Shown here one piece after another: positions 1 through 7,144 of a stretch of DNA of 7,144 bases. Within the stretch, counting starts at the first letter, position 1; each line of letters opens with the position of its first letter. Source of the stretch: Terriglobia bacterium (GTDB taxonomy: Bacteria; Acidobacteriota; Terriglobia; UBA7540); contig JALHUF010000388.1 of the NCBI GenBank assembly GCA_022866195.1, positions 1 through 7,144 of the forward strand, in the 5' to 3' direction. The position numbers were made by a program, and so were the translations under genes. The notes under the pieces were generated by a model that saw only the letters and a list, made by a program, of their open reading frames with translations, made no database searches and had not been told where the DNA came from.

Positions 1-145
1 GGAGATAAGCCAGGGCGCGCTCCGTCAACTTCTGAACGTAGGGTGTTAAGACAAACTCGTCGCTGGGCTCCAGCAGGAGGTTGTCACCGCCGGTCGGGAG
101 CCCGACCGGGGTAGCTGATAGGTTTGTCAGATCCTGGTGATTCAT
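1..145 (-). CDS. gvpN: GvpN, gas vesicle AAA+ ATPase (N-terminal fragment)
   Basis: This is the first 48 codons of GvpN; the gene continues past the left edge. GvpN is a MoxR-like AAA+ ATPase needed for efficient gas vesicle assembly. The visible part is a variable leader followed by LLLEPSDEFVLTPYVQKLTERALAYL at residues 23-48. It corresponds to the conserved family stretch (a Pro-rich start, then F-V-x-T-P-Y-V and an L-x-E-R-A-L-x-Y-L helix) just before the Walker A region, which lies outside the window. The ATG at 145 was chosen because it opens this frame and an AGGAGG lies upstream at 158-163, although the 12-base spacing is long. A nearer ATG at 155 is in another frame and soon stops. 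The gene lies 128 bases after the zinc-finger gene. Identification rests on a short stretch but the match is distinctive. Confidence 0.85.
   Translation of the reverse strand, partial: MNHQDLTNLSATPVGLPTGGDNLLLEPSDEFVLTPYVQKLTERALAYL
90..109 (-). repeat. Perfect palindrome inside the start of gvpN
   Basis: CCGGTCGGG and CCCGACCGG flank two bases (AG), a 9-bp perfect inverted repeat within codons 13-19 of gvpN. In RNA it would be an 8-bp stem with a 4-base loop. It lies about 36 bases after the start codon and could slow early translation or mark a polymerase pause; it may also be chance in GC-rich coding sequence. Confidence 0.6.
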
Positions 146-273: not shown

Positions 274-642
274 TCATTCCACGGGCAGCCATCCGCGGCC
301 GCGGCATTTTAGACACGCCATCGCTGGGGCTGAGGCGTCATCGCCCGTACCCTGGCACTGCGGGCACACAACGGTGGGGCCCGCCGGCAAGGGGACAAGC
401 CCTTTTCCGCCGCAAACGGTGCAGGTGAGCCTCTTGATGGCCCCGGTGCCCTGGCAATGCGCACAGCGTGCGTGTGGCGCCTGCACCTGCACTATGCCTC
501 TGCCTTTACAAACACAACAGGTGGAAAGCCAGGACATGATCCCAAACGGGTCCCTTCCGCTGCCGTGGCAAAAGGCGCAAGAAACCGCCGCCCCATCGGA
601 TTCGCTGGAAGCCGTTTTTGAAAGCATGATCTGCTCGCCCAC
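274..642 (-). CDS. Small protein with six DnaJ-type CxxCxGxG zinc-finger motifs
   Basis: A 122-residue protein made almost entirely of cysteine-rich motifs of the kind found in the central zinc-binding domain of DnaJ/Hsp40. Six CxxCxGxG copies start at residues 22 (CAFCHGSG), 42 (CCVCKGRG), 60 (CAHCQGTG), 74 (CTVCGGKG), 93 (CPQCQGTG) and 110 (CLKCRGRG). DnaJ normally has four, forming two zinc sites, so six could form three. There is no J domain (no HPD motif) and no DnaJ substrate-binding C-terminal domain. The start is either GTG at 642, just after an in-frame TGA, or ATG at 627, which removes five residues and no motif; neither has an ideal ribosome binding site. It follows the 31-codon ORF by about 31 bases and precedes gvpN. 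A role as a disulfide or folding helper in gas vesicle assembly is inferred only from motif and position. Confidence 0.8.
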   Translation of the reverse strand: MGEQIMLSKTASSESDGAAVSCAFCHGSGRDPFGIMSWLSTCCVCKGRGIVQVQAPHARCAHCQGTGAIKRLTCTVCGGKGLVPLPAGPTVVCPQCQGTGDDASAPAMACLKCRGRGWLPVE

Positions 643-673: not shown

Positions 674-769
674 TCAATGTAGGGCGTTATGGATCAGTCC
701 CTGGCGCGCGCTTCGCAATGCCCGGATCTCATTTCGCAATCGAGCCAGGTCGTGGGTTAGCACACCCAT
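674..769 (-). CDS. 31-residue ORF resembling the N-terminus of the GvpC-like proteins
   Basis: Starting from the ATG at 769, this frame encodes only 31 residues. It matches the opening of the two GvpC-like proteins upstream: M-G-x-L-x-x-D-x-x-R-L-x-x-E-I-x-A-L-R-x-x-R is shared by all three. It then ends at TGA without the KEERLAF segment or the Arg/Ala-rich tail. It could be a truncated third copy of the duplicated gene, or a functional minimal helix. A weak GAGG lies 10 bases before the ATG. No GvpC-like continuation was found in the other frames just downstream, so a simple single frameshift is not indicated. Its reality as an expressed gene is uncertain. Confidence 0.45.
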   Translation of the reverse strand: MGVLTHDLARLRNEIRALRSARQGLIHNALH

Positions 770-896: not shown

Positions 897-1226
897 CTAT
901 GCGCCCCTGCCGGCCCGAGCACGGCGCGCGGGAGCACGCGCGGGAGCACGCGCGGGAGCAAACTCAGCCCTCCTTTGCGATTGCTGCCCGTGCCCGGCCC
1001 AAGCACGGCCTGCGGCAGCCATCTCAGCCCTCATTTCCCGTTGCTGCCCGCCGACAGTTCGTTTCAGGTTTTTGCAGAAAGCAAGACGCTCCTCTTTGGC
1101 CTCCTTTGCCACCGTCTGGCGATCGCTGTTGCCCTCTGCGAGTTCTTCTCGGAACGCTCGACGGCTTCCGCGCAGCGCCTGGATCTCCCCGACCAATCGA
1201 GTCATGTCCTCTACCAATCTGCCCAT
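897..1226 (-). CDS. GvpC-like gas vesicle protein, second copy
   Basis: A 109-residue, Arg/Ala-rich, probably helical protein that is a tandem paralogue of the gene at 1286-1615. Both share MGRLxEDMTRLVGEIQALRG at residues 1-20, KEERLAFCKNLKRTVGGQQR, and an Arg/Ala/Gly-rich tail. The pattern A-R-x-A...L-A-F-x-x-x-L-x-x-T recalls the 33-residue repeat of GvpC, the protein that coats and stiffens gas vesicles, but the match is partial and the symbol is withheld. Compared with the first copy it lacks 8 residues in the middle (residues 31-44 here are AEGNSDRQTVAKEA, covering 22 residues there). It gains 8 in the tail through a threefold 12-base repeat encoding A-P-A-R units. Start: ATG at 1226 after an AAGGGGGG ribosome binding site. 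It follows the first copy by 59 bases. Confidence 0.7.
   Translation of the reverse strand: MGRLVEDMTRLVGEIQALRGSRRAFREELAEGNSDRQTVAKEAKEERLAFCKNLKRTVGGQQREMRAEMAAAGRAWAGHGQQSQRRAEFAPARAPARAPARRARAGRGA
925..960 (-). repeat. Perfect 3 x 12-base tandem repeat in the second GvpC-like gene
   Basis: The plus-strand unit CGCGCGGGAGCA occurs three times without a mismatch, at 925-936, 937-948 and 949-960. On the coding strand it adds A-P-A-R units to the tail, in frame because the unit is a multiple of three. The first GvpC-like gene lacks the extra copies, so this looks like slippage expansion after the duplication. Confidence 0.9.
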
Positions 1227-1285
1227 AGTATCCCCCCTTCTATTTTTTTCCGGCCATCTACCTGGCCACGCTGACCGCCGGGCCG

Positions 1286-1615
1286 CTAAGCGCCCCTACC
1301 GGCCCGAGCACGGCGCGGGGCAGTATGCTCAGCCCTCATTTCCGGTTGCTGCCCGTGCCCGGCCCAAGCACGGCGCGCGGCAGCCATCTCAGCCCTCATT
1401 TCCCGTTGCTGCCCGCCGACAGTTCGTTTCAGGTTTTTGCAGAAAGCAAGACGCTCCTCTTTGGTCCTCTTTGCCATGCGAGCGTGTGTGTCCGCAAAAT
1501 CCGCACACATTTCAACAACATCCATCACGAGTTCTTTTCGGAACGCTTGCCGACTTCCGCGCAGCGCCTGGATCTCCCCGACCAATCGAGTCATGTCTTC
1601 CAACAATCTGCCCAT
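1286..1615 (-). CDS. GvpC-like gas vesicle protein, first copy
   Basis: A 109-residue protein directly downstream of gvpA, the position gvpC takes in many clusters. It has a probable amphipathic helix at residues 1-30. A segment at 38-67 (DFADTHARMAKRTKEERLAF, then CKNLKRTVGG) resembles one GvpC repeat, with an A-R-x-A core followed by L-A-F and L-x-x-T. The tail is two 20-residue repeats (69-88 and 89-108) of pattern Q-Q-x-E-M-R-A-E...R-R-A-x-A-G-x-G. Classic GvpC has several 33-residue repeats and binds the outer shell; this protein has about one, so the family call is by pattern and context. Start: ATG at 1615 with AAGGAGGG upstream, preferred over the frame's further upstream extension, which has no conserved sequence. 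It contains a central segment that the second copy has lost. Confidence 0.7.
   Translation of the reverse strand: MGRLLEDMTRLVGEIQALRGSRQAFRKELVMDVVEMCADFADTHARMAKRTKEERLAFCKNLKRTVGGQQREMRAEMAAARRAWAGHGQQPEMRAEHTAPRRARAGRGA
1292..1411 (-). repeat. Two 60-base tandem repeats in the tail of the first GvpC-like gene
   Basis: Residues 69-88 (bases 1411-1352) and 89-108 (1351-1292) are direct repeats of exactly 20 codons. They share QQ-x-EMRAE and RRA-x-AG-x-G, and the DNA is also clearly similar, for instance the shared TCAGCCCTCATTTCC stretch on the plus strand. The second copy of the gene has the same pair, but its last unit is lengthened by the 12-base repeats. Confidence 0.8.
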
Positions 1616-1721: not shown

Positions 1722-1940
1722 TCAGGCGGGAGCCGCAGCACTGGCTGTCAGACCGATAGCCTCGGCATACTTCAGGTAGGTCTCAACCGAGGCGATCACG
1801 ACGCGGGCCTCAACCGAGAGCAGCTCGATCCCGACCAGCGACACCTTCACCCAGGCGTCGATCACGATCCCCTTGTCGAGAATCCGATCGACTACTTCTG
1901 CCAGGCTCGAGGAGTCAGTCGACTTTACGACCTTTGCCAT
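1722..1940 (-). CDS. gvpA: GvpA, gas vesicle structural (shell) protein
   Basis: GvpA is the small hydrophobic protein that polymerises into the ribbed, gas-permeable, water-excluding wall of gas vesicles. The 72-residue product has the normal family length and the invariant core: [14 protein letters not shown] at 11-24, then [17 protein letters not shown] at 25-41 (first helix end and beta hairpin). [21 protein letters not shown] at 43-63 follows, with a short Ala-rich tail. The start is the ATG at 1940, preceded by AAGGAG with 7-base spacing; an ATG two codons earlier is too close to the ribosome binding site. A sigma-54 type promoter lies upstream at 2026-2041 and hairpins lie just downstream. 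Only one gvpA copy is seen in the window. Confidence 0.98.
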
Positions 1941-2485: not shown

Positions 2486-3208
2486 CTACCTTTCGAGGGA
2501 ATCAACAAAGTTGTACGGCGGCCACGGGCCGCTCAAGAGCAGCTTGACAGAATCCTTCAGATGGAGGTGACGAGCGGCTTGGCGAAATGATTCTACGGAA
2601 CCTCTTGGCACGAGGAAGTAGAGGGACAAGAGACGGCTCCTGGCCGAATCCGGGAATTCCACCTTGCGGCGAACGTAGAGGCCGGCCAGGGAACCCCAAA
2701 GCTCCTCTACCAACAATCGCTCGTGCCGGCCTGCGCGGTCCAGGCCCAGATAACGTTCTCGCTTTGCTGCAAGGTAAGCAGCGCCGGAATTAACCAGAAG
2801 GGGAAAGGATTTTGGAGGGACAGGCCGTGCATCGCTCTCCGTTCCCGCTCCGGAACTGTCGAGGAGAACATGGATACCCATCTCCCCCAGGCCCTCGAGT
2901 TCGTCGAGAAGCGCGCCGTATTCATCGCGGTGGCTTTCCAGCAGGCAGACGGCCTCGGATGCGTCTTCAAGCTGACATCCATACCGCATGGGGATTACGG
3001 TCTGGTCGCGATACAAATGTTCGACGACCGCTTCGTAGGCGAGAATTTGTGAGATATCAGGAACCAGATCCGATTCCACAAGCTCAGAAAGCCCCGCGCT
3101 CAAACCATTCTGAGCCAGCACGAATACCGGTTTCCCTCCGACTCCCAGAGGTATTCCGGGTCTTGGTTGTGCCGGGCTGCGGAAGATGCAGTAAAGCAGG
3201 TAACTCAT
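2486..3208 (-). CDS. gvpL/F: GvpL/GvpF family gas vesicle protein, second paralogue
   Basis: A 240-residue member of the GvpL/GvpF family, accessory proteins that bind GvpA early in vesicle assembly. It opens with MSYLLYCIF, the usual family first strand. A central segment, E-A-V-V-E-H-L-Y-R-D-Q-T-V-I-P-M-R-Y-G, matches the conserved 'H...V-x-P-x-R-F-G' region. The family hallmark GPWPPYNF lies near the C-terminus at 227-234. Length is typical. The ATG at 3208 overlaps the TGA of the upstream paralogue as ATGA, indicating translational coupling. The open frame extends further upstream, but that part lies over the paralogue and shows no family similarity. It is the last gene of the right-hand operon. 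Which of the two is GvpF and which GvpL cannot be settled here. Confidence 0.93.
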   Translation of the reverse strand: MSYLLYCIFRSPAQPRPGIPLGVGGKPVFVLAQNGLSAGLSELVESDLVPDISQILAYEAVVEHLYRDQTVIPMRYGCQLEDASEAVCLLESHRDEYGALLDELEGLGEMGIHVLLDSSGAGTESDARPVPPKSFPLLVNSGAAYLAAKRERYLGLDRAGRHERLLVEELWGSLAGLYVRRKVEFPDSARSRLLSLYFLVPRGSVESFRQAARHLHLKDSVKLLLSGPWPPYNFVDSLER

Positions 3209-4023
3209 GGGGCCGTTCCCATCGATAGAGGAGGAACAAAGCGATAAGGGGGCCAGGGCCCAGAAAGTTCGAAGACCAGCCCCCTGGTGGCATGGTTCTG
3301 GTTCACCTGATCGATTCGCAAGCGAAATGCCGCGCTCGCGCCTCTCGGCAGCAGGAAGGCCCAATTCAGCACAACCTCGATTCCGCTTTCTGGGGGCTCG
3401 CGAGGTACAACTTGACATTCGCGGAAATCCGAAGCCTGCTTCCTCAGGTCGCTCGCGACTTGCTGGCAGGTTTCATTTAGCCAGAGGCTCAGTTCTTTCT
3501 CTGCACCTCCTCGGATCTGCTGTTCTTGGAAGTAGCGTGTTCCTGGAGGCAGCGCGGCGAGTTGCTCCTGCTGTGCGGCTAGGTTTGCGGAGATCAGGGC
3601 CTGCGCGGCTTCCCTTCTGTCGAGCAGGCCCTTGACTGACCATTCTTCTTGATCAGCCACCCGCTCGAAAAACTGCGAAATGGTCTGGCGATGTGTATCG
3701 AGAAATTCCGTCAAGCTTTTCTGCGACGAGAAGAGAGTCCCGAAGCGGACGGGCAGCACGGGAGAATGACGCATCACCTCCTCCACTACCTCCTCGTGGC
3801 GCAGGGCGCGCGGCCCCACCCAAGCTAGCTGTTGCATTTGGAGTTCTGCCGCCGGGCCGCAGAAATCTTGTCGGGCCACCTCGCTCACGACTGCACAGAC
3901 ATCCGGGAAGCGCCGAAGTACAGAAAGGGGATGCCGACCATCCACACCGCTCCCCTGAAGCTCCCCGACGAGGTCGGAGCGAGCAAAGCAAAACAGATAG
4001 AGCGCTGTCTGGCTCTTCTCCAT
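3205..4023 (-). CDS. gvpL/F: GvpL/GvpF family gas vesicle protein, first paralogue
   Basis: A 272-residue GvpL/GvpF protein. It starts MEKSQTALYLFCFA, a hydrophobic first strand like that of its neighbour. The mid-section E-E-V-V-E-E-V-M-R-H-S-P-V-L-P-V-R-F-G-T-L-F is the best conserved block of the family. A long charged helical stretch follows, then the C-terminal hallmark GPWPPYRF at 255-262. The family provides minor shell or assembly proteins that contact GvpA. The ATG at 4023 directly abuts the TAG of the CDC48 gene (TAG-ATG), and its own TGA overlaps the next gene, so three genes are coupled in series. It is longer than the second paralogue because of the helical insert and a longer tail. 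Confidence 0.93.
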   Translation of the reverse strand: MEKSQTALYLFCFARSDLVGELQGSGVDGRHPLSVLRRFPDVCAVVSEVARQDFCGPAAELQMQQLAWVGPRALRHEEVVEEVMRHSPVLPVRFGTLFSSQKSLTEFLDTHRQTISQFFERVADQEEWSVKGLLDRREAAQALISANLAAQQEQLAALPPGTRYFQEQQIRGGAEKELSLWLNETCQQVASDLRKQASDFRECQVVPREPPESGIEVVLNWAFLLPRGASAAFRLRIDQVNQNHATRGLVFELSGPWPPYRFVPPLSMGTAP

Positions 4024-6177
4024 CTACTCTTCACCAATGTCTTTGAGAGTCTGCTGACGAATCTCTTCGAGCGCCGCCTCCAGGTCGCTGGCCTCAATGG
4101 TGACCCGCACCTGGTCAGCGGGTGCCTTTTCGCCCGCCTGAACGGCTCGCCGGACAGCTCGCCGGGCAGCTTGGTTGCAGACCGAACCAATATCGGCGCC
4201 GCTAAAGCCGTCGGTTCGGGAGGCCAAGTCCTTGAAACTGATCCCCAGGCCGAGAGGTTTGTCCTGCAAATGGATGGCGAAAATTTCGCTGCGCCCGTTC
4301 TCGTCGGGAAGCGGAATCTCCACGACCTCGTCAAAGCGGCCCGGCCGGAGAATGGCGGGATCAAGTAAGTCTGCCCGGTTGGTCGCGCCGAGGACCAGAA
4401 CCCCTTTCAGCTCTTCCACCCCATCAAGTTCCGCGAGAAACTGGCTCAAGACGCGCTCCGCAACGTGCGAATCCGACGAGCCGGCACCTCGGCTGGGCAC
4501 CAGCGCGTCGATTTCATCGAAGAAGACGATGCAGGGTGCGGCCTGGCGCGCTTTGCGAAAGACCTCCCGCACGCCTCTCTCGGATTCCCCGACATATTTG
4601 GAGAGCAACTCCGGCCCTTTGACCGAGATGAAGTTCACCTTCGTTTCGCTGGCAACTGCTTTGGCGAGGAGGGTCTTTCCGCAGCCGGGGGGACCCGATA
4701 GCAGAATTCCCTTGGGCGGGCGGATCCCTGCCTGGGTGAACAGGCCGGGGTGCTGGAGCGGCCACTCGACCGCTTCCACGAGGCGCTGTCTGGTCTCGGC
4801 CAAACCACCGACGTCCTGCCAGCGCACGTTGGGGACTTCCACAAATACCTCGCGCAGCGCCGAAGGTTCAATATCCCGCAAGGCCTCCAGGAAATCGTCC
4901 ATTTCCACCTCGAGCTTGGCCAGTTGGTCATAAGGAATCTGCGCCAGGCCAAAGTCCACGTCGGGCATAATGCGCCGCAAGCAAATCATCGCGCCTTCGC
5001 GGCACAGGGCTTCGAGGTCGGCCCCCACAAACCCGTGCGTAATCTCCGCCAGGCGACTCAGGTCTACTTTTTCAGACAGAGGCATGCCGTGGCTATGAAT
5101 CTCCAGGATCTGCAACCGTCCGTTACGGTCGGGTATAGGGATACTGATCTCTCGATCAAACCGCCCCGGCCGCCGCAGGGCCGGATCGAGCATGTTAGGC
5201 AGGTTGGTCGCGGCGATGACGATGACCTTCCGTCGTTTGGCGAGCCCGTCCATCAACGCCAATAGCTGGGCGACGACCCGCTTCTCGACCTCGCCCACCA
5301 CTTGCTCTCGTCGGGGGGCAATGGCGTCAATCTCATCCAGGAAGATGATGCTCGGGGCCTTGCGACTGCCCTCTTCGAAGATCTTCCGCAAATGGGCCTC
5401 GCTCTCCCCGTAGAACTTGTGGATGACTTCGGGCCCGCTGACGGCAAAGAAGCTCGCCTGGGTCTCATGCGCGATAGCACGGGCGATCAGCGTCTTGCCG
5501 CATCCGGGAGGTCCGTGCAGAAGCACACCCTTCGGCGCATCAATTCCCAGGCGCTCGAAGACCTCGGGATAGCGCAGGGGTAGTTCGATCATTTCCCGGA
5601 TGCGCAGGAGTTGGGGCTTCAGGCCGCCGATGTCCTCATAGGAAATCGCGCGGGCGGCCGTTTCCTCGGGTTGGGCTCCCTTGGAGATCACGAGCTGGGT
5701 CGTTGGGTTAATCAGCACGGGACCTCTGGGCACTGTGCTTTCCACCTTGAAATCCGCCCAGCGGGCTCCAAAGAGGATGGCCCGGATGCGGTTCTCGGCC
5801 AAAACCGGCAGGCCATCGAGGCGGCTGCCGATGTAATCCAAATCGCGCTCGGAAGGAGTAATGTTGGTGGGGGCCAGCACGACCCGCTCGGCGGGCGGAC
5901 AAGCGATCTTGCGCACTTGCACGAACTCATCGAGCCCTGTCCCGGCATTCTCGCGGGTGATTCCGTCCAGTTGAATCCGGGACTGACCGCGCATCTCCTT
6001 GTAAGCCGGCATCGCCTTGCACACGGTCCTACCCTTACCCACAACTTCCACGATGTCGCCTACCTCCACCTGCAATCTCGCGAGGTCCTCCGGTCCCACG
6101 CGGGCGTACCCACGACTCACGTCCTTGCTGATCGCCTCGCTGACTTTGAGCTTGAGCGACTTCTCTTCGGTTTCGAT
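4024..6177 (-). CDS. CDC48/VCP-like double AAA+ ATPase in the gvp operon
   Basis: Predicted 717 residues. CDC48/p97/VAT proteins are hexameric unfoldases that extract or remodel proteins with ATP. Order: an N-domain (residues 1 to about 180, with LKVSEAISKDVSRGYARV near the start), D1 with Walker A GPPGCGKT at 222-229 and Walker B FLDEID at 279-284, and D2 with Walker A at 495-502 and Walker B FFDEID at 552-557. Pore loops (HKFYGESE, SKYVGESE) and RPGRFD arginine-finger motifs are present in both domains, so both look active. Length is close to archaeal VAT. The frame has no ATG, GTG, TTG or CTG before GTG at 6120, which would remove conserved N-domain residues 8-19. The likely start is ATC at 6177, six bases after a perfect GGAGGA. 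The gene lies between hsp20 (20-base gap) and gvpL/F. It probably remodels gas vesicle proteins; that is inference from location. Confidence 0.93.
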   Translation of the reverse strand: METEEKSLKLKVSEAISKDVSRGYARVGPEDLARLQVEVGDIVEVVGKGRTVCKAMPAYKEMRGQSRIQLDGITRENAGTGLDEFVQVRKIACPPAERVVLAPTNITPSERDLDYIGSRLDGLPVLAENRIRAILFGARWADFKVESTVPRGPVLINPTTQLVISKGAQPEETAARAISYEDIGGLKPQLLRIREMIELPLRYPEVFERLGIDAPKGVLLHGPPGCGKTLIARAIAHETQASFFAVSGPEVIHKFYGESEAHLRKIFEEGSRKAPSIIFLDEIDAIAPRREQVVGEVEKRVVAQLLALMDGLAKRRKVIVIAATNLPNMLDPALRRPGRFDREISIPIPDRNGRLQILEIHSHGMPLSEKVDLSRLAEITHGFVGADLEALCREGAMICLRRIMPDVDFGLAQIPYDQLAKLEVEMDDFLEALRDIEPSALREVFVEVPNVRWQDVGGLAETRQRLVEAVEWPLQHPGLFTQAGIRPPKGILLSGPPGCGKTLLAKAVASETKVNFISVKGPELLSKYVGESERGVREVFRKARQAAPCIVFFDEIDALVPSRGAGSSDSHVAERVLSQFLAELDGVEELKGVLVLGATNRADLLDPAILRPGRFDEVVEIPLPDENGRSEIFAIHLQDKPLGLGISFKDLASRTDGFSGADIGSVCNQAARRAVRRAVQAGEKAPADQVRVTIEASDLEAALEEIRQQTLKDIGEE

Positions 6178-6197: not shown

Positions 6198-6716
6198 CTA
6201 CTTAGGGCACTTGATCTCCAAAACCCCGTTGTTACACGAGACCTGCATCTTCTCCTTGGAAACGCTGCGGGGCAGGAGAACCTCCTTGCGGTACTTCTTG
6301 TCGCCTCTCTCAGCGGAAATCGTCAGCACATCGTCCTTGACGTCAATCCGCACATCCTCTTTGCTGATGCCGGGCAACTCTGCCAAAAGCAGCAGGTGGT
6401 CCTCTTCCTCAAAAACATCGACCATGGGTTCACGCACCTCCTGAACCTCGGTTCGTCCGGATTTGATGTCCCGGCGAATATTCCCAAAGGGCTCGATGCG
6501 CGGCCCCTCATCCCCCAGCCCCACCTTAACCGTAAATCCGTAGATGCCCCTGAGCTGTTTTTCTGGGCCGCGAATCTCTCCCGTTCTGGAGAGCTCTCGC
6601 CCGGTTTCGGCCAAGTCGCTGAGCTTTTCAAATAGGTCTCCCAAGCCCTTGAGTATCCCTCCGACGCCGCCTTCAATCCCGCCGTGCGAGTTCCTGTCTT
6701 TTTTCTTCTCTGCCAT
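6198..6716 (-). CDS. Hsp20/alpha-crystallin family protein of gas vesicle clusters (GvpH-like)
   Basis: A 172-residue small heat shock protein. Such chaperones hold unfolding clients in solution without ATP. The alpha-crystallin domain covers about 94-172: REPMVDVFEEEDHLLLLAELPGI, a beta-strand series DVRIDVKDDVLTISAE, and the C-terminal GVLEIKCPK, with the conserved L-P-G-I and G-V-L-x-I. It ends right after the domain and lacks the usual I-x-I tail used for oligomer contacts. The first 90 residues are unlike ordinary Hsp20: a charged start, a Gly-rich GGVGGILKGLGDLFEKL helix, then GIYGFTVKVGLGDEGPRIEPFGNI at 58-80. I recognise this as the extension of Hsp20-like proteins in gvp clusters; haloarchaeal GvpH is also Hsp20-like. 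The start is ATG at 6716, seven bases after the activator gene, with AAAGAG or AAGGA upstream. The open frame reaches 12 codons further, over the activator. Confidence 0.9.
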   Translation of the reverse strand: MAEKKKDRNSHGGIEGGVGGILKGLGDLFEKLSDLAETGRELSRTGEIRGPEKQLRGIYGFTVKVGLGDEGPRIEPFGNIRRDIKSGRTEVQEVREPMVDVFEEEDHLLLLAELPGISKEDVRIDVKDDVLTISAERGDKKYRKEVLLPRSVSKEKMQVSCNNGVLEIKCPK

Positions 6717-6723
6717 AAGCTCT

Positions 6724-7144
6724 TTATTCCTTTCGGTCTGTAATAATGCCATATTGTCTGATTTTGGAATGGATGGTTTTATAATCGATGTGAAGCAGGC
6801 GAGCGGCTTTCGCTTTATTGCCTGCCGTTTCCCGCAGCACGTGGGCTAAGATCTCCCGCTCCATGGCGACGATCTTGCGGTGCTTGATTTCTTTGAGCGA
6901 AAGGCCTCCCTGGGGCGTGTCCTGAGTCTCCTGATCGCCTCCCAGGCGCGGAAGCGTCTGCTTGTGGGATACCCGCTCCATCCCCAAGTGGTGCTCGGCG
7001 ATTATATCGTCCGCCAGAAGCACGGCCCGGCGGATCATGGAACGGAGCTGCCGAACATTTCCGGGCCAATTGTAAGAGAGCAAAGCATCGACCGCCGATT
7101 GCGTAAAGCTCTTCACGTTCTTCTGCAACTCGAGATTGGTGAGA
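6724..7144 (-). CDS. Sigma-54-dependent NtrC-family activator (C-terminal fragment)
   Basis: 139 residues are visible; the start lies beyond the right edge. NtrC-family proteins use an AAA+ domain to open promoters bound by sigma-54 RNA polymerase. Visible parts are the end of the AAA+ domain (L-L-S-Y-N-W-P-G-N-V-R-Q-L-R at about 21-34, the WPGNVRxL signature, then RRAVLLADDII), a variable linker, and a Fis-type helix-turn-helix at the C-terminus (about 103-135, A-G-N-K-A-K-A-A-R-L-L-H-I-D-Y-K-T-I). The receiver or sensor domain, the Walker motifs and the sigma-54-contacting loop are outside the window. NtrC-type regulators (GvrA, GvrC) control gas vesicle genes in Serratia, and a sigma-54 promoter is present before gvpA here, so control of this cluster is likely. 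The stop lies 7 bases before hsp20, suggesting co-transcription. Confidence 0.93.
   Translation of the reverse strand, partial: LTNLELQKNVKSFTQSAVDALLSYNWPGNVRQLRSMIRRAVLLADDIIAEHHLGMERVSHKQTLPRLGGDQETQDTPQGGLSLKEIKHRKIVAMEREILAHVLRETAGNKAKAARLLHIDYKTIHSKIRQYGIITDRKE

Follow-up and report, generated by a model that had tools for sequence, protein, structure and literature searches.

Why should a gas vesicle gene cluster carry, between its genes for GvpC-like coat proteins and gvpN, a gene for a protein with six CxxCxGxG motifs of the DnaJ type? Gas vesicles serve as ultrasound reporters, and the assembly of the vesicle is not settled. The gene in question lies in a stretch of 7,144 nucleotides from a Terriglobia bacterium (Acidobacteriota; contig JALHUF010000388.1), which was analysed as a whole and is referred to here as the window; a preliminary description of it had suggested a dedicated redox or folding helper, or a scaffold, for vesicle assembly. 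Among the papers listed in searches of an open-access library, none describes such a gas vesicle protein in its title or abstract opening. The main text of a paper on proteobacterial gvp clusters, including that of Desulfomonile tiedjei, does not contain the word 'zinc' (PMC4982088), and the main text of a paper on ArsA in gvp clusters contains neither 'DnaJ' nor 'zinc' (PMC2963123).

The six-motif gene and its cluster

The window holds the following genes, given in the order in which they are read on the minus strand:

Upstream of the Hsp20/GvpH-like gene, minus strand: Fis-type regulator, end only
6198..6752, minus strand: Hsp20 / GvpH-like small heat shock protein (PF00011, PF05455)
4024..6120, minus strand: CDC48-like double AAA ATPase (PF00004, PF02359)
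3205..4023, minus strand: GvpF/GvpL family (PF06386)
2486..3418, minus strand: GvpF/GvpL family (PF06386); longest frame, true start likely later
1722..1940, minus strand: gvpA, major shell protein; PF00741 and the NCBIfam GvpA model match on the longer frame 1722-2042, start read at 1940
1286..1615, minus strand: GvpC-like helical gene, copy 1; no Pfam family
897..1226, minus strand: GvpC-like helical gene, copy 2; no Pfam match
674..769, minus strand: short frame, GvpC-like first helix (MGVLTHDLARLRNEIRALRSARQG...), fused to the zinc protein in the relatives P0002 and P0003
642-274, minus strand: gene of the six-motif CxxCxGxG protein, 122 aa from GTG at 642
1..145, minus strand: first part of gvpN (AAA ATPase), the rest lying beyond the contig end; by eye it resembles GvpN of locus L021

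Most of what the preliminary description had said about the gene itself holds: its coordinates (274 to 642), its six motifs, the lack of a J domain and its placement between the GvpC-like genes (1615-1286, 1226-897 and the short frame 769-674) and the start of gvpN (145). The strand had to be corrected to minus, the plus strand having three stops in frame. The motifs begin at residues 22, 42, 60, 74, 93 and 110 of 122 and contain twelve of the protein's 13 cysteines, and shuffling the same residues 20,000 times gave a mean of 0.02 CxxCxGxG motifs and a maximum of 2. The GTG at 642 is perhaps not the true start, because some homologues, such as P0005, start near the ATG at 627; this is the likelier start and gives a protein of 117 aa.

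A Pfam scan of the 122 residues returned no J domain. Above their cut-offs are the cysteine-rich module of DnaJ (PF00684, 41.3 bits against 32.7), albeit in a protein with six motifs and not four, Anti-TRAP (PF15777, 37.3 bits against 32) and DUF5351. Below them are the NCBIfam models of DnaJ (36.7 bits, far under 377.2) and Anti-TRAP (RtpA; 41.7 bits against 65) and the BSD2 model PF25436 (BSD2_CRD; 12.7 bits against 27), and the Halo_GVPC repeats of PF05465 gave no match at E up to 1. PF27659 is precomputed on 18 of 120 listed relatives, and a newer Pfam release with this entry may already cover part of the family. The window's own assembly (85% complete) shows a single copy of the gene; its contig C100 carries GvpF/L and two GvpA-family genes (L132), possibly the other part of the window's gvp cluster.

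The label GvpC-like is given to the neighbouring genes by position and helical repeats, and the iterated profile may include other helical proteins. For 20 GvpC-like proteins the 25 Pfam families shown, out of 29, include neither PF01304 nor PF05465; HHH_5 matches four of the 20 and DUF4332 three, and a search of solved structures with the window's GvpC-like copy found one chance-level match. Copies 1 and 2 of the window (897-1615) are near-duplicates with 78% identity in alignment, and copy 2 terminates in a short APAR-type repeat. In Desulfocicer vacuolatum the end segment of the GvpC-like protein (L037:2769-3959) looks like a helix-hairpin-helix.

Linkage to gas vesicle loci

Relatives of the six-motif protein are widespread. 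Of the 368 candidates from a protein search, 367 are relatives at an E value of 1e-3 or less, and 120 of them were listed. A scan of one genome per species, queried with two peptide patterns from the six-motif protein itself and for that reason blind to gene context, gave 181 relatives, of which the best 80 were kept (loci L021-L100). These best 80 come from deltaproteobacteria, Acidobacteria, Calditrichaeota, Planctomycetes including anammox bacteria, Chloroflexi, Nitrospinia, Rokubacteria, Schekmanbacteria, Sumerlaeota, Lentisphaerae, Bacillota, Nitrosomonadaceae and gammaproteobacteria, single taxon assignments being uncertain since most are metagenome bins; the named strains among them are Desulfocicer vacuolatum DSM 3385 (L037), Marinobacter gelidimuriae (L026) and Aquisphaera insulae (L095).

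Each of the best 80 of the 181 loci contains at least one of GvpA, GvpN and GvpF/L, as detected with profiles built from seeds of the window and L021. Three of these kinds are present in 62 loci, two in 15 and one in three (L062, L067 and L091). The same profiles found no GvpA, GvpN, GvpF/L, GvpC-like, Hsp20 or CDC48 gene in 19 control loci with DnaJ-sized frames (flanks of at most 1.5 kb). When the neighbours are counted among the seven gene types recognised, the nearest upstream gene is GvpC-like in 58 of the best 80 loci and the nearest downstream gene is gvpN in 57; at the other 23 the next recognised gene is not gvpN, and in six of these no recognised gene follows within the stretch available. 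In four loci the six-motif frame, read at its longest, starts 4 bases within the GvpC-like gene.

Whole genomes tell the same story. In the 40 hosts of L021-L060 (the hosts of L061-L100 being outside this search) all 52 copies that matched at E up to 1e-15 lie in gvp loci. The best match is at the known locus in 40 of 40 hosts, ten further copies are on the same contigs, and of the last two one is L072 by position and the other L138, which holds GvpN and GvpF/L. A sample of 396 genomes of the phylum contains 24 with PF00741 and six with a six-motif match at E up to 1e-15 (the match in G385 being partial), a cut chosen post hoc because the next matches were mostly DnaJ-sized frames; with at most 11 candidates scored per genome, misses are possible. 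Five of the six matched genomes belong to the 24 with PF00741 (Fisher p 3e-6, or 4e-5 without the window's genome), and in the four of them other than the window's genome the six-motif gene was read within gvp clusters. The exception is G440, where a six-motif relative (L131, 9771-10211) has no gvp gene in 20 kb, a weak AAA match only, and neighbours that by eye are regulator- and pilin-like; the assembly (89% complete) has no PF00741 match.

The preliminary description had proposed a profile search of the homologues' genomic context as a check on the dedicated role; what this search found is linkage to gvp genes and not scatter, with L131 as the sole known exception. A dedicated gas vesicle role of the six-motif protein is well supported, and strongly so by the gvp genes at 80 of the best 80 of 181 loci.

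The gene is nevertheless outside the universal core of gvp clusters, as follows from the clusters that seem to lack it in the phylum sample, on plasmids and in Methylocella. Nineteen of the 24 gvpA-bearing genomes of the phylum sample have no six-motif match at E 1e-15, and vesicles there are probably made without the protein. No plasmid record holds a six-motif relative at E 1e-5, though 45 records hold GvpA, and the Methylocella cluster runs from gvpA through a helical gene straight into gvpN. Among 100 genomes of the host's relatives 36 matched, all of them partially and in DnaJ-sized frames of 267 to 459 aa.

A proposed build of three paired-motif units

The number and spacing of the motifs are conserved. 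The best copy has six CxxC motifs in 76 of the best 80 of 181 loci (overlapping motifs merged), the exceptions being L077, L080 and L081 with five and L100 with 18 in one frame. Among 79 six-motif copies the first gap measures 20 residues in all 79 and the second 18 residues in 77. A gene that is here by chance, coding for a plain DnaJ fragment or for an independent zinc protein of another kind, would account for the PF00684 match and for a relative such as L131 outside any gvp locus. The motif spacing and the gvp linkage, both conserved in many groups, together with the absence of gvp genes from the DnaJ-sized control loci within their short flanks, leave this explanation next to no probability, and a DnaJ fragment is rejected on linkage and motif spacing.

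Alignment A2, with 76 rows that were all picked for six motifs (four six-motif copies were excluded), shows a periodic pattern. A hydrophobic residue stands at position +9 after motifs 2, 4 and 6 in 96-99% of the rows and at +8 in 49-86%, and hardly ever at these positions after motifs 1 and 5. Motif 3 is an exception, with a hydrophobic +9 residue in 89% of the rows. The registers in which known structures align point the same way: with one profile DnaJ (1exk) falls on motifs 1-4 and with the other on motifs 3-6, and Anti-TRAP structures align to motifs 3-4 or 5-6, while human DnaJA3 (2ctt) departs from the odd-even register, being shifted by one motif when aligned with profile A2. From the hydrophobic pattern and these registers, the protein reads as three tandem odd-even units of two motifs each, where DnaJ has two such units and Anti-TRAP one:

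466..579, minus strand: unit 1, motifs 1 and 2 (CAFCHGSG, CCVCKGRG), with a conserved DPFGIMSWLS loop between them
367..465, minus strand: unit 2, motifs 3 and 4 (CAHCQGTG, CTVCGGKG); Anti-TRAP 2bx9 aligns here
277..366, minus strand: unit 3, motifs 5 and 6 (CPQCQGTG, CLKCRGRG); Anti-TRAP 3lcz aligns here

The loop that separates motifs 1 and 2 contains D26, which is invariant in A2, and P27, F28, S32 and S35, which are nearly so; these five residues form a candidate site for a partner.

The AlphaFold2 model of 274-627 is a confidently predicted compact fold (pLDDT 92.1, pTM 0.81). In it motifs 2 and 4 are each followed by a strand pair, and strands also precede motif 1 and follow motif 6. This predicted layout would fit a pairing of motifs 2-3, 4-5 and 6-1 around zinc, and three zinc ions per protein, as predicted, would fit the three-unit sequence pattern. 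Searches with the model gave weak or local structural matches only, DnaJ and BSD2 among them; weak matches of this kind do not establish a new fold.

The protein shares with the cysteine-rich domain of DnaJ (PF00684) the CxxCxGxG motifs in odd-even pairs, but DnaJ has four motifs and a J domain, and the whole predicted six-motif fold superposes poorly (TM 0.22). The single odd-even unit of Anti-TRAP (RtpA, PF15777) matches units 2 and 3, but Anti-TRAP has one unit where there are three here. A regulator that sequesters another protein, as Anti-TRAP does TRAP, would be in keeping with the PF15777 score and a local structural match of 31-32 columns; the missed NCBIfam Anti-TRAP cut-off and a location among structural genes, away from the window's regulator gene, make such a function very improbable.

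Fusions, multiplied modules and the vesicle coat

In two relatives the zinc domain is joined to a GvpC-like helix. P0002 and P0003, the closest relatives among 121 listed, fuse a short GvpC-like first helix to the zinc domain, unlike the window, where the helix and the zinc domain are separate frames. Each lies on a metagenome contig roughly 1 kb long. The 121 listed proteins include no other such fusion, and the 108 frames taken from the loci contain none at all. The model of P0002, calculated from an alignment that contained five GvpC-like proteins, has one helix (residues 2-50) followed by the zinc domain.

The module also occurs in several copies. At 16 of the best 80 of 181 loci the six-motif gene and gvpN are followed by a second copy of a diverged six-motif type, and L091 contains four consecutive frames, one of which carries four motifs and the others six each. 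A frame of L100 (2506-3954), in a locus with gvp genes, has 18 CxxC motifs of which 14 are CxxCxGxG; the module can thus be multiplied. Such copies, the fusion to a GvpC-like helix and the reported multimerisation of haloarchaeal GvpC via its C-terminal part (PMC9372576) would suit a structural coat element, one that would stiffen the mature shell and cross-link its GvpC-like rods. With the fused form in only two of 121 listed proteins, we consider this role improbable.

A docking adaptor or a chaperone?

A positional parallel comes from the haloarchaea. In Halobacterium the end of gvpC directly precedes gvpN, and a C-terminal fragment of its GvpC with a zinc-finger motif is reported to bind GvpC, GvpN, GvpO, GvpF, H, I and L in split-GFP assays (PMC9372576). 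The two systems have in common a zinc-finger element that is tied to a helical GvpC and encoded directly before gvpN. They differ in that the haloarchaeal element is one small finger inside GvpC, with, as read by eye, one CxxC and histidines, whereas the six-motif protein is the product of a separate gene and has twelve motif cysteines. Halobacterium GvpC itself has seven stretches of PF05465 (Halo_GVPC). Homology between the two zinc elements was considered and rejected (hhalign probability 0.7%, six columns).

This parallel, together with the nearby GvpC-like gene and the fusions, leads us to propose that the six-motif protein is a non-enzymatic docking adaptor, or hub, at the gas vesicle shell, a reading to which we give slightly less than an even chance. 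The protein, predicted to hold three zinc ions, would bind the GvpC-like helical coat protein and recruit the ATPase GvpN and GvpF/L-type factors to the growing shell, and this recruitment would allow an ordered addition of GvpA and GvpC. The six-motif protein would then be a non-homologous counterpart, encoded by a separate gene, of the C-terminal zinc-finger part of haloarchaeal GvpC.

The main rival to the docking hub is a folding or assembly chaperone without a J domain that would keep GvpA or GvpC soluble, perhaps with Hsp20, the CDC48-like ATPase and, where present, DnaK. It is fed by kinship to DnaJ, whose cysteine-rich domains are the best sequence matches among solved structures, by the appearance of DnaJ and BSD2 among the weak structural matches, and by the Hsp20 and CDC48-like genes in the window's cluster. 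BSD2, an assembly factor of plant Rubisco, offers a precedent: it, too, is described as a DnaJ-like zinc protein without a J domain that serves one large assembly, and it is reported to stabilise an assembly intermediate, but it has two zinc sites and is described from plants and algae only (PMC5859369). DnaK/Hsp70-like frames occur in six of the best 80 of 181 loci (L049, L054, where the frame is partial, L089, L091, L096 and L098); the other 74, whose stretches are often cut, have none. The nearest recognised neighbours, moreover, are mostly gvpC-like genes and gvpN and not gvpA or chaperone genes, and haloarchaeal GvpF is already reported to bind monomeric GvpA (PMC9501494). On balance we judge a chaperone function unlikely, though not markedly so. 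Of the roles that the preliminary description had offered, the redox function finds nothing in its support, and the folding helper or the scaffold may each be right.

The Desulfocicer vacuolatum gvp cluster is reported to yield vesicles in E. coli (PMC10344784). In the genome of this strain (L037, taxid 1121400) the six-motif gene (10010-10348) follows a GvpA-family gene on the 3' side of the cluster. By eye, ArsA-like ATPases are encoded in the gvp clusters of L021 (9586-11538), L037 (6673-8589) and L091 (6464-8635), an association with gvp clusters that has already been described (PMC2963123).

Implications for gas vesicle biology

A conserved gene between a coat gene and gvpN, present in many bacterial groups, has gone unnamed in the gas vesicle literature examined. 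Its wide spread, the second six-motif type after gvpN and the fusions could not have been seen from the window alone. If the gene is needed, gvp operons cloned without it would fail, which may bear on clusters that remain without vesicles in new hosts. If the docking role is true, zinc modules of unrelated fold have become associated with GvpC on at least two occasions. Many bacterial vesicle systems may, as a tentative generalisation that we hold to be somewhat less probable than its negation, use a three-zinc hub from an unrelated fold in place of the haloarchaeal GvpC finger, and this hub would tie the coat to the GvpN motor.
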